Part shown: piece after piece, positions 1-61,503 of the stretch | Layout: the number at the start of each line of letters is the position of its first letter | How positions within the stretch are numbered: the first letter of the stretch is position 1 | Assembly: GCA_036785705.1 (NCBI GenBank) | Contig: JAWUZG010000337.1 | Coordinates: 434,001-498,000 of the forward strand | Length of the DNA: 64,000 bases | Source: Acanthornis magna | Lineage: Eukaryota > Chordata > Aves > Passeriformes > Acanthizidae | Direction of reading: 5' to 3' | Program-made: the position numbers and the translations under genes | Notes under the pieces: model-generated | The model's input: only the letters and a program-made list of their open reading frames with translations | Told to the model about the DNA's origin: nothing | Databases searched by the model: none

Positions 1-3000
1 TTGAGGAGTTTTTATGTGTCAAACCTTGTAAAGTACTGATTGTGAAAGAACCATGAAAGAGAAAGCCACAGAATCCCTTTAAAATATGTCAAACAAATCA
101 AGCAAGGACAAAAATCAGGTGACAGAAGTTGCATTTCTTTTTGTGAACAGGAAAAAAGGAATTTTGCTGTAAGCTAGGCCATGCTTTTCCATCACTTAGC
201 ACCATTAATGCTGCACTAACATAGCCTAATCCTTTTTGTCAATGTATTTCTGTTAATTTGACAGCCTTTGGTAACATTCACATCTCTCTTGGGATGTTAA
301 TATATCCTGGGTTGAAGTGAATAGAGTGTGAAATCATGGTTTATAGCTCATTTTGAAATTATTTTCTTCTTCAGAAGATTAGAGAAACCCATATGCATGG
401 TTCAAACTCTCCCCTACCCATGTGATGGGGAATGGAATAAACAAATAAATATTGGTCAGCGTCCTTGCAGCACGCTGTTGCACTATGTCTGGCCTTGGGA
501 GAGCTGTATTAATTCCACTGCAGTGCTCTGTCAGAGGAGTAATCCTCCACTCAGAGTCAGGTGAAGTTTCCCTAGAGCTGTGGCACAGTGGATCTGCCAC
601 CTACCTGTGGATGTTGGCGAGCTCCCAAATACTTTGGAGTTGAGTATGTGTGTCTAAGAGCCACTTTGAAAACATCAGGGCTAAAGATGTGGACAAGTCA
701 TTGTGCTTTTAAATAAGACATTATGGTCAGTGGTTTTTTTGTCTTCCATGTGATAATCATGGTCTTGTTAGATTTCCACATTCCCATGGGAATGAAGTTA
801 GGATGTGCACAGAAATACTGCCGTTCATTTTGTATTCTTTCCAGTGCGCTTTTCATCTACACATCATGGAGCAGAAAATGAGAGGCTTGCACTCCCCTAA
901 TTCTCACAGGGGATCATTAGGATTCCCCACTGTTGTCTAATCATGTGCTGTCCCATTGATGTGTAGTCAATTGCTGGGTAATTGTGTTTTGTGGAGTAGA
1001 TCTCGCTTGAGTAAAGCAGTGTGTTGGCTTTAGTTCCGGGAAACTGGTATGGATTTTTAAGCTCTTAAATGAACAACAGATCATTCTGTGCTCCACAATG
1101 TATAAGCACAAAGTATGGAGGGAATAAGTAATGGAGAAAGGAACATTTAAAATTTATGTTTGCAGGTGGACTTGTGTGTGGAAGAAGTATCTCACATGCA
1201 TGGCAAATCAGCTTATTTTTAATTTTTGAAATGCTGGAAGGAGTTTGTGAATAAGACTGCCAGTGGGGCTGCCTTAGCCACTGGAATATGCCTGTCATAA
1301 CACACTGGGTTGAAGTTCCTGCTGTGAACTGGGGAGCTGTGAGGCCTGAGCAACACCAGGGAGAGTAAATGAGTGGTGTGGAGGAAAAAAGTTGTCTTCA
1401 AACTCTTTTTTTATTGTGTGCTCCTCATGCTCTGAGCTGCAGTCGTTAGCCCACTGTGGGTGAATGGAGTAGAGTTCCAGCTGAAGCCGTGCTGTGTACC
1501 CAAGCTTCTTTGGTCTGGATAATATTGCTGAGTGTTTTCTGCAAGTTGAGGGAATGCAGGGCCCTGCAGTCTAATATTCAGGTATATATTAGGAAAAGAA
1601 TCCCTTGGCACCAGGGCAGTTATGGCGAGCCCCATGATGTCTCATGGGCATAGGCCATTATTTATGAAACAAAACTTATAAATCAAAATCTCTTCCCCAC
1701 AAAGTTATAGATGGGCAGGGTGGAGGGAAAACTGACTCCTTTCACAGAAGTACCAAATTCACTGAATTCACCACATCAACTTCATTTTGTACGGTCTAGC
1801 TGGTTGGCCCAGAAAGTGCTTCTGTCTTTGAGGGTTTCTGCAGGTGGGGGTCGTGCCTGTCCCAGGCAGCCAGTGGGGTCATCTGCTGGGGGGGACACTT
1901 TGGGCTGTCTGGCCTGGCTTGGCTTTTGCTTTGTTGCCACCTCTGTGGGGTACACTAGGCTATTTTCAAGCTAGTGGTATTATTAGGCTAAATGACTTTA
2001 AACCAGGAACCTTCATGAGTGTGTGGGTGCTGCAGGGCAGTGTTGATCAGCCTCGGTGTGAAACTGAGAGCAGCAGCACAGGAAAGGTTACTTAATGTTA
2101 TTTTATGGCAGCACATACGTTTTGCAAATGGCTGTTTTGAAGGTCAGCCTTTTGCACGTGCTGCTTTTCGCAGTTCCCTGTCTGCCTTCAGCTCACAGCC
2201 AGGCTGGCCATGGTTATTACCTTAGAGTCATTTTTTGAGTTGCATTTGAGATGAAGATAAGAGGTAGGGCAGATTATCGGTGATAGCTGATGAGGTTGTT
2301 ATGATGAGACATTAGCTAGGGATGGGAGAAAAGGGAGAAAATAATAATGTGTTCGCTTTCCTGTGTGATAATGGTGTGGCAGTTTCTGTGCACATACAAC
2401 GCCAGTAACTCCGTGTGTTGAGAACCACGAACAGAAGGTTATAAAGGCTGCAGAGCAGTTCCAGCTGCTGTTTTATGCAGATGCACCACAGTATGAAATG
2501 ATGACATTTGCTTGTAGCAAGTTTTGCTTCCTCTTATTTTATTACATTTTGTATACTTTTTATACTGTATTTTGTATACTTTTTTATACTGTATTTTGTG
2601 TTCTATCATAAAACTCCATTTTCACTGACCCATAGATTTTTTGAATATGCACCAGCTCTCTCAGACAAGGCAGACGCAATTTTTCTTAACATATTTTTCA
2701 GCAAGACCAAGGAAAAAGAGTGAATTATGATGAATTTTGTATAAAAAGGTACATCAGAAAATAATCTGAATTAAGACTAAATGCTTGGGTTTATATTTTT
2801 CTTACTTTTCTTTCTTATTTAACTGCTCTATCCTTTTTCCCTAGTCCTTGTCTAAAGATTGAAAAATTCATAGTAAAAGAAGTATGTGATCACAATCCGA
2901 TCTTTACTGTGCAGACAAATGCAGAATTCCTTCAGTTTAATGACTCCACTGATTAAAAAACTCATAGGAAAGACTGGGAGGAACTGTAAAAGTTCAGTAA

Positions 3001-6000
3001 AATTAAGAAGTCCTGGGGGTTTTTGTTTTGTTTTGTTTTGTGAATATAATTACTGAATAAGCAGGTCCCAAGAAAATGTTGAGCTGAAACCAAATCCTTA
3101 ATTTGGCCATTGAAGTTGAATTCATAATTCCTCAGTGAAGTTATTTTTACTGCTTAAGGTAAAGAAGTTCTAAATATTACTGTAATATCACCGATTCTTA
3201 AACATGGAGGTAAAAGCTGAGTATTTATGCTTTATGAGAAGGTAGAGGAGTGGTACAAGACATCATGACTATTGTTATATTTTTATTCCTTGACAGACAG
3301 CTACTAACACCTTGTACTATAAAATATGGGCATATATGCCAAATAACATTGGTTACACATTGTTCTTTGTGGCATTTTCAACACATCCACTAAGTCTCTG
3401 TTCTACTCACCACTCTCTTATTGCCTGCAGAGAGCTTTGCCAATACTTGATGAGTCATCACATGATTTCTGAATTTAAGGAAAATAAATGCTCATTTGAT
3501 ATGAACAGGGCTGATGCCACTAAGAGGACTTTGGGGTTTGCAGGTTTATCACAAGTTGCATGTGTGTTACCTTCACAATAAGGCTTTAGGTGTTAGAAGG
3601 ATGAAGAATGCAGTCTATTACCACCTCTTAACAGATATCAGGACTATCCTGTTCACAGGGATGGATGTGTACTTGAGGCAGCCACCATGCTAATTACCAC
3701 TTCCTCAACTTGGGAATCCCAGTTTGTTCATCAAACATGAAATATCAAAGTCAACAACAGTCTGGCATTTAGTATTTTCATATTCACATCTTCACTGTTA
3801 CTGGTATGTTTTTTTAAGTCATATTTTACGCATCCAGTTGCAAACACGAGTTGGTTTTCAGTGTAAGGACAGCTGGTAAGGGCAGATTGGGAATGCAGGA
3901 AAACAAGAATTAATTGCCCAGGCCTATCAGTTGTGCAGCAGAGGGATATAGGAATTGAAATGTCAGTGTTTTGGAGAGGGGGTGATCAATGTGAATTTGA
4001 AGCTTGTTTCTGCCTCACTTCAAGTGACAAAGTATTCCTGACATCAGCTTTAGGAAAGAGACTTATATTACCTGTGAATTGGTTAGGGACTGCCTTGCAA
4101 GGAGAACTTTGTATATATTATCAATTGCAGTATTTTTGAAACAAACACAACCAAGACTCATAATTTCACAGCAAGGACAAGAAAACAAATCTCAGTGGCA
4201 GGCTCACACTGAAGGAAAGTAACTAAAAGGTACCAAGCCTACCTCACTCCAAAGATAAAGGTTATAAGAGCAGCTCTTATACACCTCAGTGCAGAAGCTT
4301 GCATCCACTAAATGGCCATCTGCTGAGTAGAAAAAATAAATGGAAGTGTGAAGGGTTTTTCTTGGCATAGTATAATGTCAGATACCCATATCTGCAATTT
4401 AAGATTATACTACACAGGGAAGTAAAGCAAAAATAACCCTAAAAAATCTCCAGCCTTTTCCAGCTGATTGTTGCCTAGGATAATTCAATTACATATTATA
4501 CATGTAGAATGAATTATTTAAAAATCCAGTATTAAAAGACTTAAAAAGCAGCAATTCTTTTATTTCCCTGCTAAATGTAACCACCAAGACTTTGTCCTTC
4601 TGTAAGTAAAATCAGAAATATCTAAACTTTTGCCAGGGTGTGTGTCCTGTTGGATCTATATATTCACTAGAAACACAAGGGTGCTAGGGTAGGAATCACC
4701 AACCTGTTCTATGCATATCATTGAATATTCCTTGTAGATGATAGCTGTGAGTCTTTTGTGAGTTGCTGTGCCTATCAGTACCACTGGATCCTCTAGGGCT
4801 TGTGCTCAGGCTGGAGAGATGTCCTGAAACACCTTGTGCACAGCCATGGATAAAGGCCCAAATATGGATTTGCACATAGAGTGCAAATCTCAAAAGCAGG
4901 GCAGAAACACAACCATGTATAAAGATTTGATTTTATCAGTAACCTGGCAAGCAGAGTCTAGAAAAAGAAAGAGGCCTCTGTTCAGCATATTGCCAGCTTT
5001 TCTGTTGTGTCCTAAATTTTTTGTACCAGTAACATTTCTCAAGGTGTTGGTAGGAATTTCTGCATGAGCAAGGCTGCAAGATATGGTTCTACTAATGCCA
5101 ATATCTTTTGAGGTGTATGGCTGCTCCATTCGGTGGGGATTTGTACTGATGGGTAGCTCTCTAGAAGCCAGCTGAAATATGTACCCATATGAATTTATGT
5201 TGGTTGTAAAATTACATGACAGAAGTGCAGTATTTCCTGCGAATTATTGCTGTATGCCTTCCTAAGTCTCTCATCTTACATTACATTTCCTAAACTCAGG
5301 GCTAAAATACTGTACTTTTTAGGCATGTATTTCAAAGGTCAGCATGGAGTTATATCTCAATTCATATATAAGAAAGAAAAATAATAATTGCAAGGAAGTG
5401 TTACTATTCATTGGCTTTTCCATCAATCTCCTTCTTGTTTTTACTTCATTTGCAGCATATGATTTCAGGGCATGAAGCCAAAGTGGACTTTTGCGTCAGC
5501 TAGTCTCACTTGCATATAGCAACTCCTCAATTATCACTTAGCTTCTCCTTTGTTATGCTCTGTGCTCCTTAGTTTATAAGGATTACTTTCAGTAAGACAG
5601 TTAAACTCAATATAAATGTGCTTTGAGATTAATACCTTGCCTGTTAATTTGTTCCCAGCTTCTCATCTTCATGGTTAAAAATATACATCAGGTAGGAATC
5701 TGAATGCACTTAGTTTTGGCTTTTAGCTGACTGTTCTTGCTGCCTACCAAGAGTGTTAAGTCATTACAGACATCTGGCTATATATAGAGAGGAAAAAACT
5801 GTAAATATTATTTGAATGCTAAGTGTACTTCAGGATTTTTAAGACATCTCACTATAAGCCTTATTAGTCTTTTATGTTCTTGCATTTCCGGGCTGGTATG
5901 ACCTGAACAGAGAGAATGAGATTGTCATTTCCCTTCTGCTAGGGGCGAATATAATTTATTTTTCTTCTTCTTATTGGACTCTCTTAACAGGAATTAAGGC

Positions 6001-7193
6001 TCATTGCTTTAAAGACACATGTGTTTAATAACAGGGATTTGATGTGTGCTGATCTCAGTGCCTATATGAAGTCTCCTGCAGATCAGAAGCAGTGCACAGC
6101 TGCAGATATTTGTGCACATGAAGTGCCTTAGAGGACCACTGCCTAACTGCATGCATTTTACATGCTTTTCTTCTGATATGGATCTAAAGCTGCCAACAAC
6201 AGCGTGGGAGCAGCAAAACTTGAAAGGAAAGGAAGGAATGTTTCCAATAAAATTTGCCTCCCTTGCATAGTCTAACTGACAGCAAGCATTCCAGCTTTGA
6301 GGGCTTCCAGTTGGCATTGTATGAAAATATATTTCAAAGTGGGGAGAAAATATGAATATAAAGAGGAGGAAGAATGAACTGCGGCACCACTGGGCTTCAT
6401 TCACAGCCAAGGCTGTGGAGAGGGAAGTGGTGACAACTTTGGAGTTATATGTGCGTAAGAGCAAAGTTTCCCACATGTGTTCTCATCAGTATCACAGTTT
6501 GGGGTGCTTGGTAATGGAGGTTTGGGCTTCAGCCAGTGGGAGGCAAGGCCAACCACAAAGTTCAGATCTGGATCCAAATGCCTGCGTGTTTGGGAGTAGT
6601 TATCCCTCTGGTTCGAGATTTTACTCATCTTAGCCATGCACAAAAATAAGTAACAAACATGAAAAAAGATGATTTTCAAGTTGGAGCTGTAATACTTTAA
6701 GTATTTAAGCCCTTTAGCAGTTTTGATTAACCAGGGGATTACATGAGATTTTGTGTGCCATTTACTTTATTTCATTTTAGCAAATTTATATATGACAAAT
6801 ACTTTGTCATTTGTACTGCAGATCAATCTTAAATGAGCCTGAAATGAGGTTTGGAGTAAATACCACTTGTGCCTCCATATCAGATCTTGTGCTTTAGGGA
6901 GCACTTGGTTATCTGCAGGAGAGAGAGTGAGCTCCTCCCATACTCTAAAACCAGCTCTTCAGCTGTACTAAGGGAGAAGAGATGGAGGCCACTGTGCTGG
7001 CAGTGACGTGGCAGCCACTTGCCAATGTCACAAAGCCATGGGCAGAAATGGCTGCTGTGAGTTGCACTTGCTGTAGAACATTGCTGCATTTTGCTAAATA
7101 TCCTCATTTTCTGCTTGGAAGATCTGATTTTTTCCCCATTTCGGGGGACTCTGCTTCTACAAGCATAAATGTGGACATTTTGTGCTTCTACTT

Positions 7194-7247
7194 ATTCTAC
7201 ACCCTGCAATTAGGTCATCTTCCTGACCTAATTGCATGGGGTAGAAT
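7194..7247. repeat. Short near-perfect hairpin (left arm)
   Basis: A 24 bp segment (7194-7217) is followed by a 6 base loop (7218-7223) and its inverted copy (7224-7247). The core of the stem is the palindromic pair around GCAATTAGGTCA / TGACCTAATTGC. Two mismatches lie near the base. It could extrude as a cruciform or be a fold-back remnant of a small DNA element. No target duplication was seen. Confidence 0.75.
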
Positions 7248-7413
7248 ATACAGAAGATGCTGGAGAGTGCTTAATTTATTTGGAGTTGAGGAGATGGCTT
7301 CAGTTGCCGGAGTTGGCACAGCAGCAGCCTACAACCATTGCTCTTGCACTTCTGTTGTGGCAGGAGCTCCTTGGTTCTTGGAGGTGCTAGAAAATCCCTG
7401 CTTCTTGTAAGAA

Positions 7414-7467
7414 GAATTCTTTGCTACAATTTCACCCCCTGAATTCTTTGCTACAATTTCACCCCCT
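7414..7467. repeat. 27 bp perfect tandem duplication (left arm)
   Basis: Two consecutive identical 27 bp units, each starting GAATTCTTTGC and ending ACCCCCT, followed by a partial third unit (GAAACCCCCT). Present in both arms, so older than the arm duplication or homogenised since. Confidence 0.85.
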
Positions 7468-9567
7468 GAAACCCCCTGAAACTCTGCCTGAGTTGGGGTC
7501 AAAAGCACATCCAGCAGCTCCTTTGGAATAAGAGGCAATGGAATTGTGACAATCATTTTCCATTTTATTCCATTTCAACCACAGATAAAACTAACACCAA
7601 TTTAATTAAACGATCTTGCATATATTGATCAGATTCTGAAATTTGCATTTAATACTAATAGCTGCAGTGGCTCGTAACATATTATATAGAATAAACAGGT
7701 TTTGAAGAGATTATTTGCTATGTTGGTGGTGGTTTTGTAAGAAAAGAAGCTAGTGGCCCTTTCTAAAAGCTTTGTAACTCAGGGTCTCCTAAATAATAAA
7801 TGTCTGCCTTGAAAATAAGGCTGTCCCATGTTCCCTTGTGTCCTGGTGGTTAGGTCACACGAAGCAAACAATTGAGCAAGCACACTGCATAAGTCTGACA
7901 ATAGATAGGTCCTTGGGAGCAGTTGTTCACGCTTTAGCTGTTCTTTTAAAAGAGCATGATCATTCTAATGTAAACCAAAGGTGTTTCTTTTTTCCTGGTC
8001 ATACAAAAAAAACCACATCTGAGTAGTCCTCATGCTCCTTCTAATTATACGACCTACTGATTTTGGGTTAATGTTCTTCGTTCCAATTCAGACTGTTCCT
8101 GTTAAGATGCAGCTGGCGTCAAAATGATCCTATCTTATGACTACTACTGTATATGATATAATTAAGGAGTAATCCCTTTCAAAATTGGTCATTAGCATTA
8201 GCTAGCAATTTGCTAAATTTGCTTCAAAAGGTTAATGCTACAGCTATGGTAAACAATAACTAATTTCATGGGGATTTATTGCTGTTAAAAAGTATAATCA
8301 GTTTCTAATAGCAATACTTAATTTTTAAAAAAAACTGTAGATTGGTTGACTGCACTCGGATTGCTTACAATGGATATTTTCCTGGCAGATGGGTAATCCT
8401 CTGTTAGTAATTTCAATTCTGAGTTCTCAGATTTAGCACTTCAATTATGCATTCTTCGTTTGTTTTATTAATTGGTTATATTTGACAATGCTGAACTATA
8501 CATGCATGCATAATATATGACATATTATTCATGAAATTTTGCAATGTGACAGGCTCTGGTTACTCATGAGTAATACAGCAACCGTCACATAATAAATAAA
8601 GTAAAGTGACTTTATGTAAGCTTGTTCTAAGTCCTTAAACATAATTATCTGAATTGTTGAAAGGAAATAAGTGTTGAAATTACTCTGATGCGTGATGTAG
8701 TAATTTGAGGAAATAAATTCTTATGCAATAGGTAGAACTCTTCTAAAGATGTTTATGAAAGGAACAAATGAGATAAATGGAGATATTCTGTGCTTAATAC
8801 CAAGGCTGAAGGTGGCTGAGATTGGTGTGCTAACCCTTGCTGTAAATTTCTGCCGCTTTATTAACTGCAGCAGAACTGGATATAATTACATAGGCATAGA
8901 ATTTAGCCGGGAGGGAATATTGCTACTGTGTGGAGCTGAAGTTCTTGCAGGGTAGGAAACACATGACTGATGAATTCTGTGAGTTGCTGGAGAGCCTCAT
9001 TCATGTCTCTGGTTTCATGTCTCTTCTGGTCATAAAACCCAATAACCTCAGCTCCCTCTCAGTGCCTTCAGATGCAAATATTCTGCCATGGAAATCTAAA
9101 GTAAACCTTTAGTTTGAATCAAACAAAATGAAAACAGTTTGCTGAGTTGCGGAGTCTCATTTCAGGTGACTTTGAGGTGTGTGTGGCAGGTGTGTGCTGC
9201 TCTGGTGCCTCGTGGGAGCTGTGTGTGGGTGCGTTCTTCCCTCATTCTTCACTCCTCCTGTACTGCCTGACCCCCAGATCTCTGTGTGCAGAGATATTCT
9301 GAATTTGGCAAAAGGCTGAGTCTGACCACAGAGTTTGCAGGTGACGGAGAAGGTGAAGTGACAGTCGCTGGAACTACAGCTCCCACAGTTCTCCAGGGCT
9401 TGAGGATTGCAGGTTTTGCACTGAAGTTGTCTTTTTTGAAAAGTAACATTACATAAGGACTCAGGGAAATATATTCCAGTGCTTGCATTAAATGTTTTGA
9501 GGCTTTTGTTCCAAAGTACTTTTGTTTGTATTGAAAGTACCAGGAAAACACTTATATTTTCAAAATT

Positions 9568-9591
9568 AAAAAAAAAAAAAAAAAAAAAAAA
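9568..9591. repeat. Poly-A run, 24 bases
   Basis: Uninterrupted A-run on the + strand. The right-arm partner at 51902-51928 is 27 T, so the arms differ by 3 at this homopolymer. It has no retroposon body that I recognise next to it. Confidence 0.85.
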
Positions 9592-11995
9592 TCCAGAACA
9601 TTTCATTCTGTAAAGCATTTTGATGTATAAAAACTCCACAATTTTTCCTTAGGCTGCATGATATTACACTAGTCTTGTTTTTAGTAAAATATTTTTCAGT
9701 GATTTCTCACATTATATAGGGGTTCTGTATACAAAGAAGAAGAAATAATGGTTGCAGATAATTTTTTCGCTTACTGAATTCCATAAAATGCATACTCACC
9801 TTCTTTGCACTTACAGAGTAAAATTATTTTTAAAATTTCCAAATATTTTGTTAAATCTTCCTTCTTGTTGCTTTTTTCTTCCCCTCTAAAGCCCATATTA
9901 GCATTCCTACTTTAGGACTTTTACCAATTGTTTAAATTACAATACAATTTTGAGATAATTCAACCTCTAAATAGCAGAATTTAGTAGCAAATTATCACCT
10001 TAAGTGAAATCACAGAAATCATTGATGCAATAATCCATTACACTTTTGTTACCAGTTTCTTGTTGGTTGTTATTCACCTGCATTACAGTCAGTAACTTCA
10101 CAGGAGAAAAGCAGACCTCAGTAGAAAGAACATCAACCAACCTGGTCAAGACTACCACCTCCAAATTTACAGTTTTTATTATATTTTTATATTTATATTA
10201 TATTCATATGCTCTGGACAGTTCCTCCAGCTTCATTTAGACAGGGTCAATAGAACCTAACCGTTCTTTTCTGGGTTTCTAGAGAGAATTAGAAAATAGTA
10301 TCTGTTCATTTCCTTGCAAATCTCAACATTTTATCAAGACAGGAATGCATTACTGCAAAGAGTTCATTTGTGAAGCAGGTTCCACAGATTAAAGATTTAA
10401 ATAGGTATTTTTTTTGTGATTGTCATTTTTGTTTCCCTTTTGAATTGTCTTTAAAGACAAACTGGCAGCCTTGTAAATTAAATAGAAATTGTTATGTCTG
10501 AAATTCATGTGCATTCATTAATATTGGAAGTTAATGTTATAAAAATCTTCAGCCATATCATAATCTCTTTAAGTGCTACTAATGCATACTCATACTTTTC
10601 TTATGTTGTCTTCTGTCACTAAAAAGTAGATTCTGCTTTCATTTACTGTAGCTACAAACTACTGACAGCATAGCTCATTTCCGAGCATGTAAAACTGTAA
10701 TTAAGATTGTGGCATGCAGTTTTGCCTCCCTGGTGCACTACAAAAAGAAAACTGACTTTCCCCAAAATTTCTTATCTGCAAAAGGAATTTTGGGACACTT
10801 TAAGAGAGTGCATTCAGTGACTTTTTATAATCTTTATTTCCTACTCCATTACAGAATTGCATAGACTAATAGCACTATTTTTTTTAAGCAGAACTAGATT
10901 CAGCTTGTGAGCGGTAAACCACAATTCAGTAGAAAAAGGTCTATGTGAAAATTCATTGCAAACATAAACAAGAATATCTCTGTTGACTGCACTGGCCTTG
11001 TGCATTTCAGGAGACAGAGTAGTCTAAGAAGTCAGTACCTCAGTCAGGACAGATGGATGTATTTTACTCTCTTTTAGTCTCGTTCTATCAGCTGTGTGAT
11101 TCAGCTGGCATCTGTGCTTTGGTTTTCATGCTACAGATCCTGTTATATCAGTTCCAGTGACACAGAAGTAGTAATTCATCTGTATGCTGACTTTTCTGAC
11201 ACAGGTATGTTTGAGATCATGGAGGTGTTATTTTAAAGAGCACATTGTTACATTGGTCATGGAGTTACACAGCAGTGTCTGTTTTACAGAGAAGTGTGTA
11301 TGAATGAAATGCACTGTTACTACTGAATAATTAAGCTTCATTGTGGCAATTTTTACGTATGAAGAGTAGGAGAGGAGATCTGTCAGTAGCATCTGAATAA
11401 TAAGTCTGAGATGTACCAAATGCCTTGTGGAAATGTGGTTCCTAGAGCTGTTCTCCCATGCTGAATTCTAAATATAGGCTTCTGAGATGGAGTAAAATCA
11501 GCATTCAAAGCATATTTGTGTTAGGGCTGTTAAAGGATTTACTTCCCATTCACTACCAGCATTTTTGCTCTCACATTTCTCATCCGTTTACCTACAGACT
11601 TACCACAGGGCTTCATTGTGTGCCCTCTTCTGTCACACAAATGTGCTGGCTAGCAGAAAACCAACCATTACTGTATTGATTTTCTTTCATGCCTGCAAGT
11701 CATGAAGGTTTTGTGATTAATATAAATCAATATTTGTGGTGGAGCAGAAAGTGATTTGCGTAACTGCTGATGAAAAAGAGAACACTGAAACTTTCATTCA
11801 ACATCATTTTTATCTGTAAATATTTGTCTTAATAGGATTTCCACTGTACCAGGCTTCATACTGTGAAGCAGGAAGTTTTTGGTGTGATATTGGCAGAATT
11901 TCCTCAGCTGTGACCCCCTACAATTTTAACACAATTTTAAAAAGAGCTAGAATCTAAGCTAGATACCCTGCTTCCTTATTACTTGTTAGAGGAGA

Positions 11996-12249
11996 GATGG
12001 GATGGGATGGGATGGGATGGGATGGGATGGGATGGGATGGGATGGGATGGGATGGGATAGGGATAGAATAGAATAGAATAGAATAGAATAGAATAGAATA
12101 GAATAGAATAGAATAGAATAGAATAGAATAGAATAGAATAGAATAGAATAGATTATTTCAGTTGAAGTGCAATAATCACCTAGTCCACCCACCTGACCAA
12201 GGACCAACCAAGTCAAAGCTTGTACGTAAGGGTCTTGTCGAAATGCCTC
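11996..12249 (-). mobile_element. CR1-type LINE 3' end, distal part with pentanucleotide tail (left arm)
   Basis: Read on the minus strand this is the 3' untranslated end of a CR1 retrotransposon: a region containing GGTGGACTAGGTGATTAT, then a tail of ATTCT repeats that turns into ATCCC repeats. On the plus strand the tail is GGGAT repeats (11996-12057) followed by GAATA repeats (about 12065-12150). Family knowledge: bird CR1s end in a short tandem repeat and are usually 5'-truncated. The element is split by the solo LTR at 12250-13641 and continues at 13647. Confidence 0.8.
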
Positions 12250-13641
12250 TGTGGTAGTTTTGCCTGGCCCAGTTTTTGCCAGTGGATAGGGTGGGGTACA
12301 AAGATGGCTCCTGCATGTCCTGAGTAAAGATTCTGGACATTTCTCCACCATGTCCAGCAGAGCCAATCTCTGATGGCTCTGAAGATGATGGACATGCTGC
12401 TGGCCAAACCTGGGCCAATTAGAGATGTTAGTTACGCCTCTGTGAAAACATATTTAAGAAGAAATCAAAACAAGGTAAGCACGCACTTCTTTGTAGCCAG
12501 GGAAGGAGGAGGAGGAGGTAAAAATATGTGAGGGAGAACAACATGGAGGCACCAAGGTCAGTGGAGAAGGTGTGGGAGGAGGTGCTCCAGGCGCCGGAGC
12601 TGAAAACCCTCTGCCAGCCGTGGTGAAGACCATGGGGGAGCAGGTGGTCCCCCTGCAGCCCATGGGGTCCAGGGGGATGCAGAGAACCCCCCACAGCCTG
12701 TGGGGAGGTGCCCACGCCAGAGGAGCAGGTGGAAGCCTGCAGGAAGCTGTGATCCAGTGGGAGTCCCAGAGACTGAGAGTTGCAAAAGCCTTGCAGGAGA
12801 GAGAAAGGCCTTGCTCCCGGGATGGAAACAGCCTGGCCTCGGCTTGGAAGTCTGCAGCCTGGAGAGAATCTCGGACAGCAGCAATCGGGCGGGGCTGCTC
12901 GTGAGATTGGACCCACGCCAAAGAAGTTCGCAGAGGACTGTCTCTCGTGGGAGGGACCCCCATGGCTAAGTAGAGGATTCTTTTCCCCTGATGGACTGAC
13001 CCTGACCAAAGGAAAACCCCCATGCCCTGCCCCCACCCCGGAGCTGTTGGTTAGAAGGAAGGAGGGAGGGGGTGAGCTGAGAAACGGCCTTAATAGGGAG
13101 AGGGGTGAGCAGAACAACAGTGTTTGTAGCAGAAGAATTGTGGCGTTGGACTGACTAAGAAAAGCCACATATCTTGCCCCAACCCGGATCTGCTGGTTGA
13201 ATGGAAGGAGGGGGCGAATAGAGAAACAGTGTCTGTAGTAGAAGAATTGTGATGGACTGACTTAAAGAAAAAACCCCACACCCTGCCCCTGCCTGGGAGT
13301 TGTTGGTTAGTTAGAAAGGTGGGAGGGGGTGAGCTGGGAAGCGGTGCCTTAAGAGGGAAGGGGGGTCAGTGAAGAAACGGTGTCTTGAGAGCTTATTTTT
13401 ATCTCTGATTTATCCTCCGACTCTGTTAGACTAATAAATCACTTTTTTTTTGCAACTTTAAGTTTCCCCGCCTGCTTTTGCCCTGAATCTAGTGCGTCCC
13501 CTTATCAGTGGTCTTATCTCAACTCATAAGTCCAGTGTTTTGTGTTAATTTTCCCTCTCCTCTGCATAGCTGCAGCAGGAGAGAGCATAGAGAGCAAACG
13601 TCGTAGGTGCCTGGCATTTAGCCAGGGTCAAACCCACGACA
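12250..13641 (+). mobile_element. Solo LTR of an endogenous retrovirus inserted in CR1 (left arm)
   Basis: A 1392 bp element begins TGTGGTAGTTTTGCC and ends AACCCACGACA, the canonical TG...CA form. It is flanked by a 5 bp direct repeat GCCTC (12245-12249 and 13642-13646), and the flanks are two halves of one CR1. A TATA-like TATTTAAG lies near 12450 and a polyadenylation signal AATAAA at 13433-13438, fixing plus orientation. There is no internal retroviral sequence, so it is a solo LTR left by LTR-LTR recombination. The 246-codon minus-strand open frame and 100-190 codon frames in it are incidental to its GC-rich middle. Class II (ERVK-like) assignment is from its end sequence and length and is tentative. 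Confidence 0.9.
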
Positions 13642-13800
13642 GCCTCTTAAACCCTGACAGGCTTGGGACCTCACTACCTCTCTAGGAAAGGCTGTTCCAG
13701 TGTTTGACCCCCCTTTCAGTTAAAAAATGCTTGCTACAGTCCAGTCTAAAGCTCCAGATGAAGGGCATTAAATTGTTCCTTGAAAACTGAAAGAGTTGTA
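13642..13800 (-). mobile_element. CR1-type LINE 3' fragment, proximal part (left arm)
   Basis: Continuation of the CR1 at 11996-12249 on the far side of the solo LTR. It contains the CR1-like stretch GACCTCACTACCTCTCTAGG and a TGTTCCAGTGTTTGACC motif, in minus orientation. Joining the two parts across the LTR, with one GCCTC copy removed, restores a continuous CR1 3' region. The upstream end fades into unrecognised sequence near 13800. Confidence 0.75.
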
Positions 13801-15869
13801 CATAGTGTACAGGTGCGAGGTGAAAGAGTGTGCATAGTGATAATGCTGGGCTTTTTGCAGGCTAGAAAATTGCAGTCTTAGCTATATAGCTTATCTGCTC
13901 TTCTCTGTAATAGCAGGAGGAGAGCAGATAAGTATTTATACACCTATTTTATATAAGTTCACCAGTATTTCCCTTTTGCTTTCCTCATGCGGGATTCATT
14001 TCAGTCTCTTTTTTACCAACCCTCTATAAAGAGATCAAAAAACAACAACTGTAAACTTTGAAATTGTAATTAATAACTTAATCTATTAAAGGTATGTGTT
14101 CATATGCTACATGCATACAAGTATAGTATAAGAGTATTATGCAAGTGATGGGGAAATGATTTTCACATAAAGTCTTTGTAGATATTACGGATGTGATTCA
14201 TAGGTCAAATTGCAGCTAGAAATTATATTCTTCCTGTGCTCTTTTTTTCAAGAAAAAAATAAGCTATTGCTGTGGACTTGGTATATAATCATTTTAAGGC
14301 ATAAAAGGATGTGTATGGATTTTGAAAACTTAGTTACTGGTTTTCAAAATGGAAGAAATCCAGAGCATGATCCTCTTCCACACTTTTTTCAGCTGTTTGT
14401 ACAAATTCTGCACAGAAAACTGGCCTGCCACACATGTTGTAAAATATATATATATATTAGAAAACAGTTTTGCAATACTTCATTTTTCTCACTGTTATGA
14501 CTGGATTTGTATCAACAAATCCACCTTTTAAAAGCTTCACATTGTAAGTATGTGAGTAGCTCAGGGAAAACAGGTCTCTGATATGGGCTAGTAACTGAAT
14601 GTACTGAAGTAAATGGTGGTTCTGTATCCCTTTAAAGTTTAAAATTACTTAAAACTGTATTACAGCTAAATTAGCTATGCTTTCGGGGCTACATATGTTT
14701 TTATATTTCTAAGGAACACAGCATAGCAAATGGTCTAATCTGACTGCCACCGCCTGTCTTTGGACCTGAGTATGTGAAATGTCAGTGATCACAGTCATAG
14801 ACTTTGGCAGTTTGTTGTCGATAAAAGATGTACAGTCCTAAACAGACATCAGTATTGTAACACACTGTAGAAAATCCCCATTTCAGTGTTGAGATATACA
14901 ATTTTCAAAGTAAAGAAATCAAAAGGGGGAATGCTTCCATCCAGCCTGTCTACAGCATGAACTGAGAAAGGGAAAAAATAAGTGATTAAATTTTGATCAA
15001 CTTTATGCAGATGTTTGTATCAAAGAACTCTTTTTGAATCTTTGTTTCTTGGTATTAGAAATGGATGTTTGGCACAAGCTGGATGCATAGAAGTCAGACT
15101 GCTTGTATTTTTTGGTAGAATTAAGGCTGAGAAATGCAGGTGAATCCTTGGAAGTTAACATTGCATACACTGATGAGAATTGTAGAATGTGCAAATTATA
15201 TGTTACACTAGATAGAGATTTCCTTTTAATGCTAAAGAGTTTTCTCTGGTGGTTCTTGTATTTATGTCATTTGTGTGAGTGTTGTGTCATTTGTATGAGT
15301 GTTGTAACAACTAGTGTGGCAACAATTTTGCTTGTGCATGATTGCTGTCAAACTCAGTGTCCCAGAACCAAGGAATTTGCCTGATATTGACATGAGTCAC
15401 TGGTTATCTGATGCAGAAACAAGGTTTGCATAAGTCCCAGCACTTTACATCACTAGTTTGACCAGTAAATCATGTGTAGTTTCATTACTCTTGTTTTGTA
15501 CTTGTTTTTGGAGACACTGGTATTCATCCCTGCCAACTGCTTGTCAGTCTGGTACTTTCTGAATGACTGCCTTGTCTCCTACTTCTGAATAACAGCAGGG
15601 GCAGGTGGCTGCGTAGTTTCCAATCAAGAAGGAATGCTAATGAATTATAAAGAACTTCTGACTTGCATTTAATAGCACCATGACATGTTATAACAGCCTG
15701 CCAAACACAACATTTCTTATAAATCACACTTCAAGGGACAAAAGTATCCACCTCTCATATCTGAGGCCTCTGCAAAAGTCAGTGTTTGAAGATGACACAA
15801 TTTGCTCCACCTTGTAAAGTACCCTCTTATGAGAAATGTTTCTTTCTTTCATGCACAAAATAAGATAAT
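13801..15869. other. Stretch without recognised features (left arm)
   Basis: AT-rich sequence with open frames under 100 codons and no repeat that I recognise, apart from the stem at 13890-13932 and a short TA run near 14444-14458. The right-arm copy is at about 45650-47720. Confidence 0.6.
13890..13932. repeat. 12 bp perfect stem with 19-base loop (left arm)
   Basis: CTTATCTGCTCT (13890-13901) is matched by its exact reverse complement AGAGCAGATAAG (13921-13932). Right-arm copy at 47590-47632. No U-run follows and no function is evident. Confidence 0.6.
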
Positions 15870-16628
15870 TTAACATTTTCTCGCTTCTCCCCAACCACAA
15901 CGGCACTGAGCACTTTGTCTCATTTTAGGAAACACTCTATTGTTCTTTTGCAGGAAGAAAATCCATTTCAGGGATGGTGTTTGAATAATAATTGGCAGCA
16001 TGCCTGAAGTATTGACATTGACATATTGACATTGACTCATTGGAGGCCAAATCTGAGTCGGGGTTAGCAGCTGTGCAGATAACAGGCACGGATAAGGGAA
16101 CCATTGAAATGGCCCCATCTTGATTTGTATCCGCTTTTGTCTTCTAGCTGTTTCAGAAGCACAGGTGTTCTTCACTCTGGAGCAGTGAATTGCGGGTCCT
16201 CTGGCCGTAACCTCGCCTTCAGTGAGGGTCATCGGGACTTGGAACGGTGCTCTGGACTTGGTTGGTAAAGTGCCTGTTTTTCCATGGAGCACAGCTTCAG
16301 TCTCCAGGCAGGAAGAGGTGGGCAGGTGCGTGTGGAGAAGATGACGAATGTGCAGAGTTTCGGCAAAGTGGAACTTCCAAGCTGTTCGATACCTTGGCAA
16401 GGTAAGCTGCTTTCTCATCTCGCCATTTTTCTTGCCCGAGACTTCACTTGCTATGGCCTGCCACGCAATATTTCCTAAATATTTCCTCCTGTTGTCTCTC
16501 TCCGCCGGGGTTGTACGCGGACTCTCTGGAAGGCTTGAGGCCAGGCCTGAACCTATGTCTTGGATGTTTTTGACCACTTGGAGTCCTCTGTGTTTTGAGG
16601 CTTCCATTGACACGTTCAGCCTTAGCAC
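15870..16628 (-). CDS. Unrecognised 252-codon open frame (left arm); coding status doubtful
   Basis: An ATG-initiated frame of 252 codons on the minus strand, which I do not recognise. It is basic in its first half and has no signal peptide or clear membrane segment. A C-terminal patch reads GPFQWFPYPC. It begins just beside the polypurine/polypyrimidine tract, whose composition lowers stop frequency there, but most of the frame lies outside that tract. The right-arm copy (44902-45597) diverges at the end: an 8 bp length difference near 15935 changes the frame, giving 231 codons. One indel between otherwise near-identical arms argues against strong coding constraint. It may be chance or the remnant of an old element. 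Confidence 0.15.
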   Translation of the reverse strand: MLRLNVSMEASKHRGLQVVKNIQDIGSGLASSLPESPRTTPAERDNRRKYLGNIAWQAIASEVSGKKNGEMRKQLTLPRYRTAWKFHFAETLHIRHLLHTHLPTSSCLETEAVLHGKTGTLPTKSRAPFQVPMTLTEGEVTARGPAIHCSRVKNTCASETARRQKRIQIKMGPFQWFPYPCLLSAQLLTPTQIWPPMSQCQYVNVNTSGMLPIIIQTPSLKWIFFLQKNNRVFPKMRQSAQCRCGWGEARKC

Positions 16629-17281
16629 CTTCCTTTCTTTCTCTCTTTTTCTTTCTCACTTTCTTTCTTTCTCTCTCTCTCTTTGTCTCTCTCTCTCTTT
16701 TTTCTTTCATTCTTTTCCTCTTTCTTTCTTGCTTTCTTTATCTCTCTCTTTCTCTCTATCTTTCCCTTTCTTTCTTTCTTTCCCTCATTCTCTCTTTCTC
16801 TCTTTCAATCTTTATCACTCTCTTAATCTCTCTTTCTATCTTTCTCTCCTTTTTTCATTCCCTCTTTCTCTCTTTCTCTCTCTCTTTCTTTCTCTCTTCC
16901 CCTCTTTCTTTCTTAATTCCTCTCTTTCTCTCTTTCTTTCTCTCTATCATTCTCCCTTTCTTTCTCTCTCTCTTTCATTCTTTCTTTTCCTTCCTTCCTT
17001 CCTTCCTTCCTTCCTTCCTTCCTTCCTTCCTTCCTTCCTTCCTTCCTTCCTTCCTTCCTTCCTTCCTTCCTTCCTTCCTTCCTTCCTTCCTTCCTTCCTT
17101 CCTTCCTTCCTTCTTTCCTTCCTCCCTCCCTCCCTCCCTCCCTCCCTCCCTTCCTTCCTTCCTTCCTTCCTTCCTTCCGCACCCTTCCTTCCTTCCTTCC
17201 GCACCCTTCCTTCCTTCCTTCCGCACCCTTCCTTCCTCTCTTTCTTTCTCTCTTTCTTTCTCTCTTTCTTTTCCTCTCTTG
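16629..17281. repeat. Polypyrimidine tract (CTTT/CTCT then CCTT then CCCT), left arm
   Basis: About 650 bp in which the plus strand is almost only C and T. Imperfect CTTT/CTCT sequence (16629-16985) is followed by a long CCTT array (about 16988-17118), a CCCT block (about 17120-17152), more CCTT with three GCACC interruptions (17178-17229), then CTTT again. Open frames of 160-339 codons crossing it are low-complexity artefacts. Mirror-symmetric homopurine-homopyrimidine DNA can form triplex (H-DNA) structure. Confidence 0.95.
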
Positions 17282-18230
17282 TTTTCTGCCGTCTCCACAC
17301 TTCCCTGAGGCACCGTGGTGCCACAGGGGAGCCTGGCTTCCAATAACATTCCACGGCGTCAACACAGCCAGCATCTCCAGGGTGCCTGCCTGTGACACGG
17401 TGACAACACCGCCGTGTCACAATGGCCCCTGGCTTGGGCAAGATCCAGGGTGCCAGTTGGCCCTTGGCTGTGGGAGCGGCTGGCTGGCTGGCTGGGAGCT
17501 CCTGCCTGGCCAGAGGCTGGGGGAGAAGCGGCAGGGGCAGGGCGCACACAGTATTGTGGCCCCTTCCTCGTGTGCCCACGAGGCCCGAGGCTGGCCCTGC
17601 CGCAGGCCTGGTGGTACACAAGGCCCGCTGCTGTGAGGCCTTGGCTGTGCAGGTGACAGCGGTGTCCTGGCGTGGAGCATGGCTGCTCCAGGCCGGGGGG
17701 GTGGGGAGTGGGGGCCGCCTGGGGTGGGAAAGCGGCAGGGATGAGCCCTTGGCCTGCACACTGTGCTGCAGCTGCCCGTGCCGCGGGAGACTGAGTCCCT
17801 GTGCGAGCGAGCGAAGGCAGGCAGCCCTCTCCAGCAAACAGCCAGGGCCCTGCCACCCCCTCAGCTCCCTGCAAAGGCCAGCTTGGGCAGCTTGGAGGCC
17901 AAAAGGGCAGTGGCAGGCAGTCTGCCGCTCCGACTTGTGTCTAGAGGTGAGGCAGAAATGTGCCATTTGGAGGGGGTGGGTGCCCCTTTCCTGCAGTCAC
18001 AGCCACCCCGGGAGCACAGCCGGAGTTGGGCAGGGCACGGGGGGAGGGAAAGCTGGGGGGGTGGGAAGGAGCAGGTTGCGCAGCAAAGCCCCGCCCCCGC
18101 CAAGAGGGCAGAATCATTGGCAAGTCACTCCTGGAGGCGCTTGAAAGCCCAGGGGGGTGCTTCCCGATGGAGGGAAGCAGGAGCCCGAGCACTGCCAGGG
18201 TGGCAGCACATAGGCTGGCGAGAGAAAGCG
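17282..18230. other. GC-rich block with G-quadruplex-capable runs (left arm)
   Basis: About 950 bp with far higher GC than the surroundings and open frames in several phases on both strands (up to 240 codons). None is recognisable, which is what GC-rich non-coding DNA looks like. Two G clusters fit a four-run quadruplex pattern: 17695-17728 and 18039-18065. The block is bounded by the polypyrimidine tract and the satellite-like units. It could be a CpG-rich element, a divergent LTR or part of a satellite; the sequence does not decide. Confidence 0.6.
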
Positions 18231-18613
18231 CGAGAAAGAAGCGGGCGGCTCTCTGCGGTCCGAAAGATGCAAACAGAAGAGGCTATGTGGAGAACACATT
18301 CTCCACGCACGCTACCTTCTCCGGGAGCTGCAACTGCACGAGTTTTGTAAGACTAAAGCTGGGGAAAAGTGTTTCTCTCTCTCTCTCGCTCCCTCTCTCT
18401 CTGCACATTGTCCCCGTGTCCCGGTGCTGCCAGAACATCGTAGCAGCGAGAAACATCCTTTGGAGATGAGCCTGCATGCTGCTATGCCTGCCGGTGCAGT
18501 TTGGATGTGAAATGCAGGGTGCACAGCAGCTCCGCGTTCTCCGGCACCTCGCTTCGGCTTGTAGCCGCCTAAGACGCACCTTCGCCGGCTAGGCGTTCTT
18601 AGCTCGCAAAGCA
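18231..18613 (+). repeat. Satellite-like unit 1, full (left arm)
   Basis: First copy of a unit with about 383-385 bp spacing. Landmarks: CGAGAAAGAAGCGG at the start, GAAGAGGCT at 18276, a short CT-repeat near 18375-18405, and a CTTTGGAGATGAGCC motif near 18459. The second half (about 18493-18613) is missing from unit 2. No coding potential that I believe, although a 60-codon frame recurs in each unit. Confidence 0.85.
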
Positions 18614-18895
18614 CGAGAAAGAAGCGGACGGCTCTCTGCGGTCCGGCACAGATGCGAACAGAAGAGGCTACGTGGAGAATACATTCTCCACGCACGCTAC
18701 CTTCTCTGGGAGCTGCAACTGCACGAGTTTTGTAAGACTAAAGCTGGGGAAAAGTGTTTCTCTCTCTCTCTCGCTCCCTCTCTCTCTGCACATTGTCCCC
18801 GTGTCCCGGTGCTGCCAGACCTTCGTAGCAGCGAGAAACATCCTTTGGAGATGAGCCTGCATGATGCTATGCCTGCCCCAGGCTTTAGTCTTACA
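18614..18895 (+). repeat. Satellite-like unit 2, truncated (left arm)
   Basis: Second direct copy, offset 385 bp from unit 1 (GAAGAGGCT at 18661). It stops after the first ~280 bp, where the sequence turns back on itself. Confidence 0.85.
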
Positions 18896-19379
18896 GAACT
18901 CGTGCAGTGGAAGCTCCCAGAGAAGGTGGCGTGCGTGGAGAATGTATTCTCCATGTAGCCTCTTCTGTTCACGTCTTTGCAGGACTGCAGAGAGCCGTCC
19001 GCTTCTTTCTCGCGCTTTGTGAGCCAAGGGTGCCTAGCCGGCAAAGGTGCGTCTTTGGCGGCTACAAGCCGAAGCGAGGTGCCGGAGAACGCGGAGCTGC
19101 TGTGCACCCTGCATTTCACATCCAAACTGCACCGGCAGGCATAGCAGCATGCAGGCTCATCTCCAAAGGATGTTTCTCGCTGCTACGATGTTCTGGCAGC
19201 ACCGGGACACGGGGACAATGTGCAGAGAGAGAGGGAGCGAGAGAGAGAGAGAAACACTTTTCCCCAGCTTTAGTCTTACAAAACTCTTGCAGTTGCAGCT
19301 CCCAGAGAAGGTAGCGTGCGTGGAGAATGTGTTCTGCACATGGCCTCTTCTGTTTGCTTCTTTGCTGGACCACAGAGAG
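18877..19379 (-). repeat. Inverted copy of the satellite-like units (left arm only)
   Basis: This 503 bp stretch is the reverse complement of 18247-18749 with a constant coordinate sum of 37626. The two together form a hairpin with a 127 bp loop (18750-18876). There are no large indels between the two arms, but clear substitutions (for example the GAAGAGGC complement reads GGCCTCTTC at 19342-19350). The right palindrome arm lacks this inverted copy. Confidence 0.88.
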
Positions 19380-19404
19380 TGAAGAGAGGGTGACCAAGTG
19401 AATT

Positions 19405-19548
19405 AAGCAGGTAGCTGCTCTGGGAGACGCTGTTCCATGTGAGTGTGTGGCATATGGAAGGTCGAGAGTTTGTCCAGGTGTCCGGCTGTATGTCGGTACT
19501 TAATGGTGTTTTTCTGTGTCTGTGATGTGACTGGTGCCATACACTTGT
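19405..19548 (+). repeat. Short inverted repeat pair, copy A (left arm)
   Basis: Matches the reverse complement of 21466-21622 at roughly 85-90% (shared CAGGTAGCTGC, GTGTGTGGCATATGG, GGTGTTTTTCTGTG). The two copies face each other about 1.9 kb apart inside the left arm. In the right arm only about 50 bp of this copy remains (43104-43153), cut by the same deletion that removed the inverted satellite copy. Confidence 0.8.
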
Positions 19549-19770
19549 TGTTGCACAGTGTTTGCATTGTAATCCTCTATTTACAGGTCCGTTAGAAAAA
19601 GCTTTTCAGGCCTTTGTGTTTGTGGTATCACTGGAGAATACCCGTAGAAGAAAATCTTTGCTATTTCTGCTGCTGTGACCACGTCGTAGTGCATTAGTAG
19701 AGATATTCTGTAAGAAGGAACCTCAGGCTGTGAGTCTGCCAGTGAAGCAACTTGAGTGGATGCAGGAACC

Positions 19771-20106
19771 ATGGAGCACATTGTGGGGCAAGCTGGAAAC
19801 TTGTACAAGTATTGGGCCCAAACCACAGGAGGCTGAAGACACCACTGGAGTGCTAAAAGACTGTTGTGGATTTTGTGCCAACTCCTCAGACACGCTCTGA
19901 AGAGCGTCTTCTTATTCATGCTGGATGCCAGGGTGAATGTCTGTTATTTGCGTACAAAGTAGCAGCTGAAAAGAACACAGAGCTTTGAAAAGCAGTTAGT
20001 GGAACGAGACAAGGCCATAGAACAGCTGAGGACTGATATGATGTTGCAAAGGCAGGCATTTGTGGCTGCTGCCACCACACTGCAATCTGAGATCTCAGAA
20101 AGTTAG
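19771..20106 (+). pseudogene. Degenerate 112-codon frame, unrecognised (left arm)
   Basis: One phase runs from ATG at 19771 to TAG at 20104-20106 with two internal stops, TGA at 19834-19836 and TAG at 19960-19962, and no frameshift needed. The last ~45 codons are charged and helix-prone with a heptad-like look (KQLVERDKAIEQLRTD), suggesting a short coiled coil. The first half is aromatic/leucine-rich. GTAAGT follows the terminal stop at 20111, resembling a splice donor. I do not recognise the family. A retroviral gag fragment or a decayed exon are both possible. The same frame and stops are in the right arm. Confidence 0.35.
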
Positions 20107-20262
20107 GCCTGTAAGTGAGGTTCTGTCCTAAGTTACAAGTGAAGTTAAATAGAAGTCTTGTTCCTTTGTTAAATGTTTAAGTTTTAAGTAGAAGTAAAGT
20201 GAAAGTGCTGGTAAACTTTTAAGCCATGTTCCTTTTTATCCTTACCTCACTGTCCTTTTGTC

Positions 20263-20271
20263 ACATGCACA

Positions 20272-20313
<42 letters not shown>
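20263..20313. repeat. (CA)n(GA)n microsatellite (left arm)
   Basis: A CA run passes directly into a GA run. The right-arm partner at about 42345-42392 has slightly fewer units. Confidence 0.9.
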
Positions 20314-21465: not shown

Positions 21466-21622
21466 CAAGTGTATGGTACCAGTCACATCACAGACACAGA
21501 AAAACACCATTAAGTTCCCACATACAGCCGGGCACCTGGACTAAATCTTGACCTTCCATATGCCACACACTCACACAGAACAGCATCTCTCAGTGCAGCT
21601 ACCTGCTTCACTCTCCTGGTGC
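21466..21622 (-). repeat. Short inverted repeat pair, copy B (left arm)
   Basis: Inverted partner of 19405-19548. The right-arm equivalent is 41048-41204. It abuts degenerate ~26 bp repeats at 21588-21766. Confidence 0.8.
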
Positions 21623-21766
21623 AGCCCTGCGCTTAGCTGATTGAGCCCTGCTCTTTTCACACACCCATCCACGCACCCACCCACCCACACACCCACACCC
21701 ACACCCACCAGCCTCTCTTGGTGCAGCTATGCGTTTCACTCTCTTGGTGCAACTACGCGCTCCACT
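21588..21766. repeat. Degenerate ~26 bp repeats and C/A-rich run (left arm)
   Basis: Four imperfect units of the form CTCTTGGTGCAGCTA...TTCACT begin near 21588, 21614, 21713 and 21740. Between them lies a CCCAC/CACACC simple repeat at about 21658-21710. Right-arm copy at about 40904-41082. Confidence 0.65.
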
Positions 21767-38730: not shown

Positions 38731-38773
38731 GAAACAAACTGAAGCTTGTTGAAGCTGAAGTGCAGGAGCACTG

Positions 38774-38856
38774 CACTGTCAGTGGGCTTTCCTTGCGTGT
38801 CTGTAAACTGGGGAGTTCAGTGGGGCCTTGAGCCCTGAGAGTATCATGGACACAAG
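38774..38856 (-). repeat. Diverged extension of the palindrome, right side
   Basis: Partner of 24248-24330. It abuts the near-identical arm directly on one side and retroviral 3' sequence on the other (polypurine tract near 38717-38730). Confidence 0.85.
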
Positions 38857-43154: not shown

Positions 43155-43448
43155 TGCTAAGCCTGGGGCAGGCATAGCATCATGCAGGCTCATCTCCAAA
43201 GGATGTTTCTCACTGCTACGAAGGTCTGGCAGCACCGGGACACGGGGACAATGTGCAGAGAGAGAGGGAGCGAGAGAGAGAGAGAAACACTTTTCCCCAG
43301 CTTTAGTCTTACAAAACTCGTGCAGTTGCAGCTCCCGGAGAAGGTAGCGTGCGTGGAGAATGTGTTCTCCACATAGCCTCTTCTGTTTGCATCTTTGCCG
43401 GACCGCAGAGAGCCGCCCGCTTCTTTCTCACGCTTTCTCTCGCCAGCC
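43155..43448 (-). repeat. Single hybrid satellite-like unit (right arm)
   Basis: The right arm has only one unit. One end resembles left unit 1 (its GC-block junction and the ATGCAAACAGAAGAGGC region). The other end resembles left unit 2 (CCAGACCTTCG rather than CCAGAACATCG, and GATGCTATGCCTGCCCC). That is what recombination between units 1 and 2 would leave. It then joins directly to sequence corresponding to left position about 19503, with the inverted copy absent. Confidence 0.8.
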
Positions 43449-44353: not shown

Positions 44354-44901
44354 GGAAGGAAGGAAGGAAGGAAGGAAGGAAGGAAGGAAGGAAGGAAGGA
44401 AGGAAGGAAGGAAGGAAGGAAGGAAGGAAGGAAGGAAGGAAGGAAGGAAGGAAGGAAGGAAGGAAGGAAGGAAGGAAGGAAGGGAGGGAGGGAGGGAGGG
44501 AGGGAGGGAGGGAGGGAGGGAGGGAGGGAGGGAGGAAAAGAAAGAATGAAAGAGAGAGAAAAAGAAAGAAAGGGAGAAGGATAGAGAGAAAGAGAGAAAG
44601 AGAGGAATTAAGAAAGAAAGAGGGGAAGAGAGAAAGAAAGAGAGAGAGAGAGAAAGAGAGAAAGAGGGAAAGAAAAAAGGAGAGAAAGATAGAAAGAGAG
44701 ATTAAGAGAGTGATAAAGATTGAAAGAGAGAAAGAGAGAATGAGGGAAAGAAAGAAAGAAAGGGAAAGATAGAGAGAAAGAGAGAGATAAAGAAAGCAAG
44801 AAAGAGGAAAAGAATGAAAGAAAAAAGAGAGAGAGACAAAGAGAGAGAGAGAGAAAGAAAGAAAGTGAGAAAGAAAAAGAGAAAGAGAGAAAGAAAGGAA
44901 G
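44354..44901. repeat. Polypurine tract (GGAA, GGGA, GAAA), right arm
   Basis: Partner of the left-arm tract with purines on the plus strand: GGAA array to about 44480, GGGA block to about 44533, then imperfect GAAA/GAGA. It lacks the three GCACC-interrupted units of the left arm, and this region is about 131 bp shorter overall. The GGGA block is longer here than in the left arm. Confidence 0.95.
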
Positions 44902-60300: not shown

Positions 60301-61503
60301 CCATGCATGTGCGATACTTCTTCCACACACAAGTCCACCTGCAAACATAAATTTTAAATGTTCCTTTCTCCATTACTTATTCCCTCCATACTTTGTGCTT
60401 ATACATTGTGGAGCACAGAATGATCTGTTGTTCATTTAAGAGCTTAAAAATCCATACCAGTTTCCCGGAACTAAAGCCAACACACTGCTTTACTCAAGCG
60501 AGATCTACTCCACAAAACACAATTACCCAGCAATTGACTACACATCAATGGGACAGCACATGATTAGACAACAGTGGGGAATCCTAATGATCCCCTGTGA
60601 GAATTAGGGGAGTGCAAGCCTCTCATTTTCTGCTCCATGATGTGTAGATGAAAAGCGCACTGGAAAGAATACAAAATGAACGGCAGTATTTCTGTGCACA
60701 TCCTAACTTCATTCCCATGGGAATGTGGAAATCTAACAAGACCATGATTATCACATGGAAGACAAAAAAACCACTGACCATAATGTCTTATTTAAAAGCA
60801 CAATGACTTGTCCACATCTTTAGCCCTGATGTTTTCAAAGTGGCTCTTAGACACACATACTCAACTCCAAAGTATTTGGGAGCTCGCCAACATCCACAGG
60901 TAGGTGGCAGATCCACTGTGCCACAGCTCTAGGGAAACTTCACCTGACTCTGAGTGGAGGATTACTCCTCTGACAGAGCACTGCAGTGGAATTAATACAG
61001 CTCTCCCAAGGCCAGACATAGTGCAACAGCGTGCTGCAAGGACGCTGACCAATATTTATTTGTTTATTCCATTCCCCATCACATGGGTAGGGGAGAGTTT
61101 GAACCATGCATATGGGTTTCTCTAATCTTCTGAAGAAGAAAATAATTTCAAAATGAGCTATAAACCATGATTTCACACTCTATTCACTTCAACCCAGGAT
61201 ATATTAACATCCCAAGAGAGATGTGAATGTTACCAAAGGCTGTCAAATTAACAGAAATACATTGACAAAAAGGATTAGGCTATGTTAGTGCAGCATTAAT
61301 GGTGCTAAGTGATGGAAAAGCATGGCCTAGCTTACAGCAAAATTCCTTTTTTCCTGTTCACAAAAAGAAATGCAACTTCTGTCACCTGATTTTTGTCCTT
61401 GCTTGATTTGTTTGACATATTTTAAAGGGATTCTGTGGCTTTCTCTTTCATGGTTCTTTCACAATCAGTACTTTACAAGGTTTGACACATAAAAACTCCT
61501 CAA

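Follow-up and report, generated by a model that had tools for sequence, protein, structure and literature searches.

On the W chromosome of the Pekin duck, 38 palindromes of 15.2-345.5 kb, which together account for 22% of the assembled chromosome, are described in the excerpt of PMC7787181 as composed of nested repeats and seemingly free of robustly expressed genes, and palindromes are given there as absent from the W chromosome of the emu. A bird palindrome was studied in 2010 (cited in PMC7787181, PMC3403216 and PMC7692361), for which gene conversion was inferred and which, according to the citing passage in PMC3403216, includes part of the CHD1W intron. On the primate X chromosome, the excerpt of PMC8981503 reports 12 conserved palindromes with an arm identity of >99%, 10 of them containing protein-coding genes, and describes the spacers as unstable, with some of their sequence able to match the arm in another species.

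The window, by which the whole stretch of DNA analysed here is meant, comprises 64,000 nt from Acanthornis magna (contig JAWUZG010000337.1, positions 434,001-498,000, forward strand). Large palindromes of the sex-chromosome type have inverted arms of >8 kb with an identity of >=99% and a spacer between them. The arms in the window were 22.6 and at least 23.8 kb in length and 99.8% alike outside the repeats and the large indels. As far as the excerpted accounts go, the Pekin duck W palindromes resemble the present one in size range, nested repeats, lack of robustly expressed genes and avian host; they are sex-linked, whereas sex linkage of the present one is a hypothesis. The 2010 palindrome is likewise avian, with conversion inferred for it, and contains the CHD1W intron segment; none was recognised in the window in searches made without a CHD1 reference. 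The primate X palindromes, in the reported part, share with the present one arms >99% alike, an intervening spacer and unstable spacer sequence that may formerly have belonged to the arm (here the candidate decayed arm edge). Most of them are gene-bearing (10/12), whereas Pfam showed no convincing gene domain here among the scanned ORFs of >= 58 aa.

Palindrome structure and differences between the arms

The window was compared with itself by BLAST and the two arms were aligned globally. The main features are as follows.

1-23815, forward strand: left arm, inverted match to 38855-61503, outer end truncated at the window start
23816-38854: spacer (15,039 bp), in which no long repeats are seen
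38855-61503, reverse strand: right arm of 22,649 bp, inverted match to the left arm
16629-17287, forward strand: CTTT/TTCC tandem repeat, differing in length between the arms (right-arm counterpart at 44354-44901)

Two inverted matches, 1-17170 with 61503-44354 (17,196 columns, 99.27%) and 19503-23815 with 43155-38855 (4,313 columns, 99.58%), were obtained by BLAST and are separated by a structurally different region. The global alignment contained 23,837 columns, with position 1 paired with 61503 and 23815 with 38855. An inverted match of such size far exceeds chance, and the giant inverted repeat with arms >99% alike and a spacer of about 15 kb, which the earlier note had proposed, was thereby confirmed with identical end pairs. 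The length of the left arm (at least 23.8 kb) is a lower bound, as the window start truncates the arm and the outer boundary lies beyond it; the flank at 61504-64000 may belong to the arm as well.

For the counting of single-nucleotide variants (SNVs), 16600-17320 (the CTTT/TTCC tract, with 40 difference rows), 12030-12070 and 18870-19505 were omitted. With the tandem repeats masked in this way, 44 SNVs were found in 22,013 aligned bases (0.20%), and with the nested repeat at 18200-19510 additionally omitted, 37 differences in 21,721 aligned bases (0.17%). Outside the CTTT/TTCC tract, the arms differed by nine small indels of 1-8 bp (two change a homopolymer by 1 bp, another alters the length of a poly-A run and a fourth falls within a CA repeat), by a 30 bp length change of a tandem repeat near 12.03 kb and by two large gaps of 383 and 614 bp (997 bp in sum). 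Apart from these two gaps, one-sided stretches outside the tract were 30 bp or shorter, and no arm-specific transposon insertion was visible there in the arm alignment. The SNVs, indels and structural difference support the claim that the arms are two real, slightly different copies.

The region of the two large gaps consists of a nested repeat.

18225-18877, forward strand: a direct repeat in two units, c1 (18225-18492) and c2 (18608-18877), for which the right arm has one chimeric unit
43159-43436, reverse strand: the one chimeric unit found in the right arm, changing from c1-like to c2-like
18888-19501, forward strand: 614 bp segment present in the left arm only, from self-BLAST and the arm alignment

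The units c1 and c2 are 95.6% alike and start 383 bp apart. Among the 25 ungapped columns informative for c1 and c2, the right unit was c1-like at the first 11 and c2-like at the next 9, and the last 5, lying outside the unit, were c2-like (1), c1-like (2) or neither (2); inside the unit proper, 7 c1-like columns were followed by 3 c2-like ones. Only one place inside the unit breaks this pattern: in the c1-like half, where c1 has a gap of 2 bp, the right unit agrees with c2. The left flank of the right unit is that of c1 and its right flank that of c2, and together with the change from c1-like to c2-like this suggests that 383 bp were lost through recombination between c1 and c2. Most likely, therefore, the right arm underwent a 383 bp deletion between direct units which left the chimeric unit behind, and the 2 bp loss in c1 most likely came later.

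Most of the 614 bp segment is made up of an inverted copy (18876-19379) of 18249-18749, 94.6% alike, and the junction of the 614 bp gap is short and end-joining-like. The difference of about 1 kb noted earlier does exist, and is best read as two separate right-arm deletions of 383 and 614 bp instead of one event; on these readings the left arm is treated as ancestral. A spacer segment at 26637-26786 matches the nested repeat of the arms at five places with 78-81% identity, and the nested repeat is for this reason probably a dispersed element.

Coding content and avian origin

From the 232 listed ORFs of >= 58 aa, 228 (142 from the left arm and 86 from the spacer and flank) were scanned with Pfam; simple-composition frames were prefiltered, four low-complexity ORFs were dropped and the right-arm ORFs were left out. 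No convincing gene domain was obtained among these 142 and 86 ORFs at E values up to 0.01. A weak zf-HC5HC2H match (E 0.0056) occurred in one of the 142 arm ORFs, where about one is expected by chance. When 10 ORFs were considered at E values up to 0.1, four weak matches (gag-asp_proteas, Asp_protease_2, PKcGMP_CC and StcE_b-sandwich) were found in three ORFs, all under the curated cut-offs, and the retroelement frames were likewise matched by Pfam solely below the curated cut-off. An ORF of 277 aa in the arm gave 2 weak nameless matches. A profile of mixed spacer ORFs gave 0 hits against solved structures, which is of little meaning as the ORFs are unrelated. The description of the window as gene-free is thus borne out as far as Pfam shows for the 142 left-arm and 86 spacer and flank ORFs of >= 58 aa. 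Nothing points to a coding function, and the palindrome most likely arose passively, through recombination in DNA rich in repeats.

One retroelement was recognised in the spacer by its protein relatives.

34111-36315, forward strand: broken avian endogenous retrovirus fragment, with a gag-like frame and a protease-like frame that continues into the beginning of reverse transcriptase

No pair of LTRs for this fragment was seen in the window when it was compared with itself for direct repeats. The protease/polymerase frame had 26 relatives, many of them bearing protease or reverse transcriptase Pfam domains: one is bird-named (Turdus rufiventris), another three carry the label Klebsiella pneumoniae, probably through contamination of those records, and 22 are nameless. 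Five of the 7 relatives of the gag-like frame are named and all of these are birds (Phaenicophaeus, Mimus, Charadrius and, twice, Balearica). Over both frames, 6 of the 33 relatives are bird-named, from five genera, 24 are nameless and no other vertebrate is named. Judged by these retroelement relatives (26 and 7, respectively), the DNA of the window is avian, in agreement with the bird-like content reported earlier and with the bird genome that an avian W palindrome presupposes. The CR1 end motif gave 0 matches (0.25 expected), and no Rfam family reached its gathering score. The spacer also holds a local tandem repeat at 33661-33911 with a unit of about 92 bp, and a long tract of nearly pure A and C at 30745-30969.

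Inner edge of the arms

The arms end abruptly at 23815 and 38855, and inverted homology resumes on the left side beyond a one-sided segment.

23816-24247, forward strand: 432 bp segment present on the left only, either lost from the right side or inserted into the left
24248-24341, forward strand: resumed inverted homology (87%), a possible decayed former arm end, with its partner at 38763-38856
38763-38856, reverse strand: partner of 24248-24341, flush with the right-arm edge

This pair was detected with E values of 7e-27 and 2e-26; under a looser scoring the match lengthened to about 110 bp, with an identity of 83%. In the 92 bp past the 432 bp indel, which are collinear and inverted, 12 differences were counted, a divergence of 13% (95% interval 7-22%), whereas that of the arms is 0.17% (Fisher p about 1e-18). 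An indel that halted conversion, with decay at the normal rate beyond it, would be expected to give such a drop in identity at the edge. The 92 bp homology suggests, from its position and divergence, a decaying former arm end, and on account of this decayed homology the palindrome may be older than its arms appear. Avian DNA changes at a rate near 2e-9 substitutions per site per year, which, very roughly, would put the age of the edge scrap at some tens of millions of years and the apparent age of the arms at about half a million. The pair could instead be two copies of a dispersed repeat lying by chance in order.

A second inverted pair lies deep in the spacer (28741-28805 with 31785-31844, 65 bp, 85%), is collinear with the palindrome and may likewise be a dispersed repeat. 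In two of three scorings, nothing in the spacer matched itself at E < 1e-10 except, at most, a local tandem repeat and two inverted pairs, both short. The possibility that the whole spacer is a decayed older inverted repeat was rejected: beyond the edge pair only the 65 bp pair passed E < 1e-10, the kilobases between hold nothing convincing, and uniform decay should have left more pairs.

Maintenance, age and chromosomal location

The distribution of the SNVs along the arms was compared in bins of 0.5, 1 and 2 kb. A patchy distribution, as would be left by conversion tracts, was at first indicated (p 0.0114, 0 of 5,000 shuffles and p 0.0002, respectively), and SNV spacing with the nested repeat included gave p 0.02 for the spread of gap lengths and p 0.06 for the longest gap. 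This argument was dropped since it was the nested repeat, chimeric unit included, that gave most of the signal. With the nested repeat omitted, the variance/mean ratios were 1.00, 1.45 and 1.08 (p 0.44, 0.05 and 0.29, respectively), the longest identical run between the arms (3,041 bp) was unremarkable (p 0.14) and no clear conversion tracts were seen in the SNV spacing. As to G+C, the 44 SNVs had no direction (17 with left AT and right GC, 20 the reverse and 7 neither), a count that is uninformative without an outgroup.

With modest confidence, we favour a genuine gene-free bird palindrome, set among retroelement fragments and dispersed repeats, in which conversion keeps the arms alike. An inverted duplication would have set two copies head to head with the spacer in between; the arms would then pair within one chromatid or between sister chromatids, and gene conversion would rewrite one from the other and preserve a likeness of about 99.8%. 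Meanwhile the right arm would have shed about 1 kb by the two deletions and the inner edge would have retreated. The chimeric unit, the palindromic structure and the arm differences are read directly from the alignment; which way the changes went, and that conversion accounts for the high identity, we infer. Conversion between the arms, as proposed in the earlier note, is plausible from the inner-edge pattern, the drop to 87% being in its favour, and takes no support from the near-even SNV spread. The lack of a visible arm-specific transposon insertion and the order of the G+C values given below also count for the favoured reading. The near-even spread and the lack of clear tracts fit a recent segmental duplication in inverted orientation, which could lie on any chromosome and at the above rate would date back about half a million years, with arms alike through recency and no need for gene conversion. 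The abrupt arm ends at 23815 and 38855 also suit such an origin, as do the 44 SNVs, of which 32 are transitions and 12 transversions, a proportion usual for neutral change. It would, however, require the flush and collinear 87% edge pair to be chance or a repeat, and two sizeable deletions in one arm are, in our judgement, somewhat many for so short a time. This origin is considered possible but less likely. The stronger version of the conversion reading, in which an old gene-free palindrome had its arms kept together for tens of millions of years with no gene to preserve, is considered unlikely.

An assembly artefact, in which both haplotypes of a single locus were joined head to head or a chimeric read folded back on itself, is quite improbable. 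The arm divergence of 0.17% does fall inside ordinary bird heterozygosity, which is the point in its favour. A fold-back read, however, would show neither a unique spacer of 15 kb nor structural differences, and the indels (nine small ones, with two 1 bp homopolymer changes and one of poly-A length) are fewer than raw-read error would be expected to leave. The right-arm chimeric unit has the form that a natural deletion would produce, and the deletion pattern, which looks like natural mutation, argues against a fold-back and less so against two haplotypes, in which a deletion would look identical; haplotypes 0.17% apart would nevertheless leave the 87% homology past the edge unexplained.

The favoured palindrome is thus taken as real and possibly long-lived, and of a kind already well described, for example on the duck W. 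Gene-free palindromes offer a test of whether arm-to-arm conversion is selected via genes or is passive, and an old one, if truly so, would mean that persistence can be a passive outcome of recombination and not just gene protection. Given its readable deletion history and possible fossil arm edge, the palindrome could be dated by comparison with related birds, and the detail most worth following is the inner edge, which, if it has decayed as supposed, could supply the age.

Location on the W or on another sex-limited or germline-restricted chromosome, which is compatible with conversion as well as with youth, is a reasonable prior rather than a result and, by analogy, is rated just short of probable; sequence alone does not separate W, Z and autosome. 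Size, repeats and lack of genes fit the duck W palindromes. The W chromosome of the emu, however, is reported without palindromes in the excerpt of PMC7787181, and among the papers listed in a literature search none paired the germline-restricted chromosome with a palindrome in its title or abstract. Besides the non-recombining sex chromosomes named in the earlier note, palindromes with arms >99% alike also occur on the X chromosomes of primates (PMC8981503, as excerpted). With these the present palindrome has in common, in the reported part, the G+C order arm > spacer > flank: the arms have 43.1% and 42.5%, the spacer 41.8% and the 61504-64000 flank, which may itself be arm, 37.5%, the left arm without its tandem and nested repeats (42.4%) hardly exceeding the spacer.
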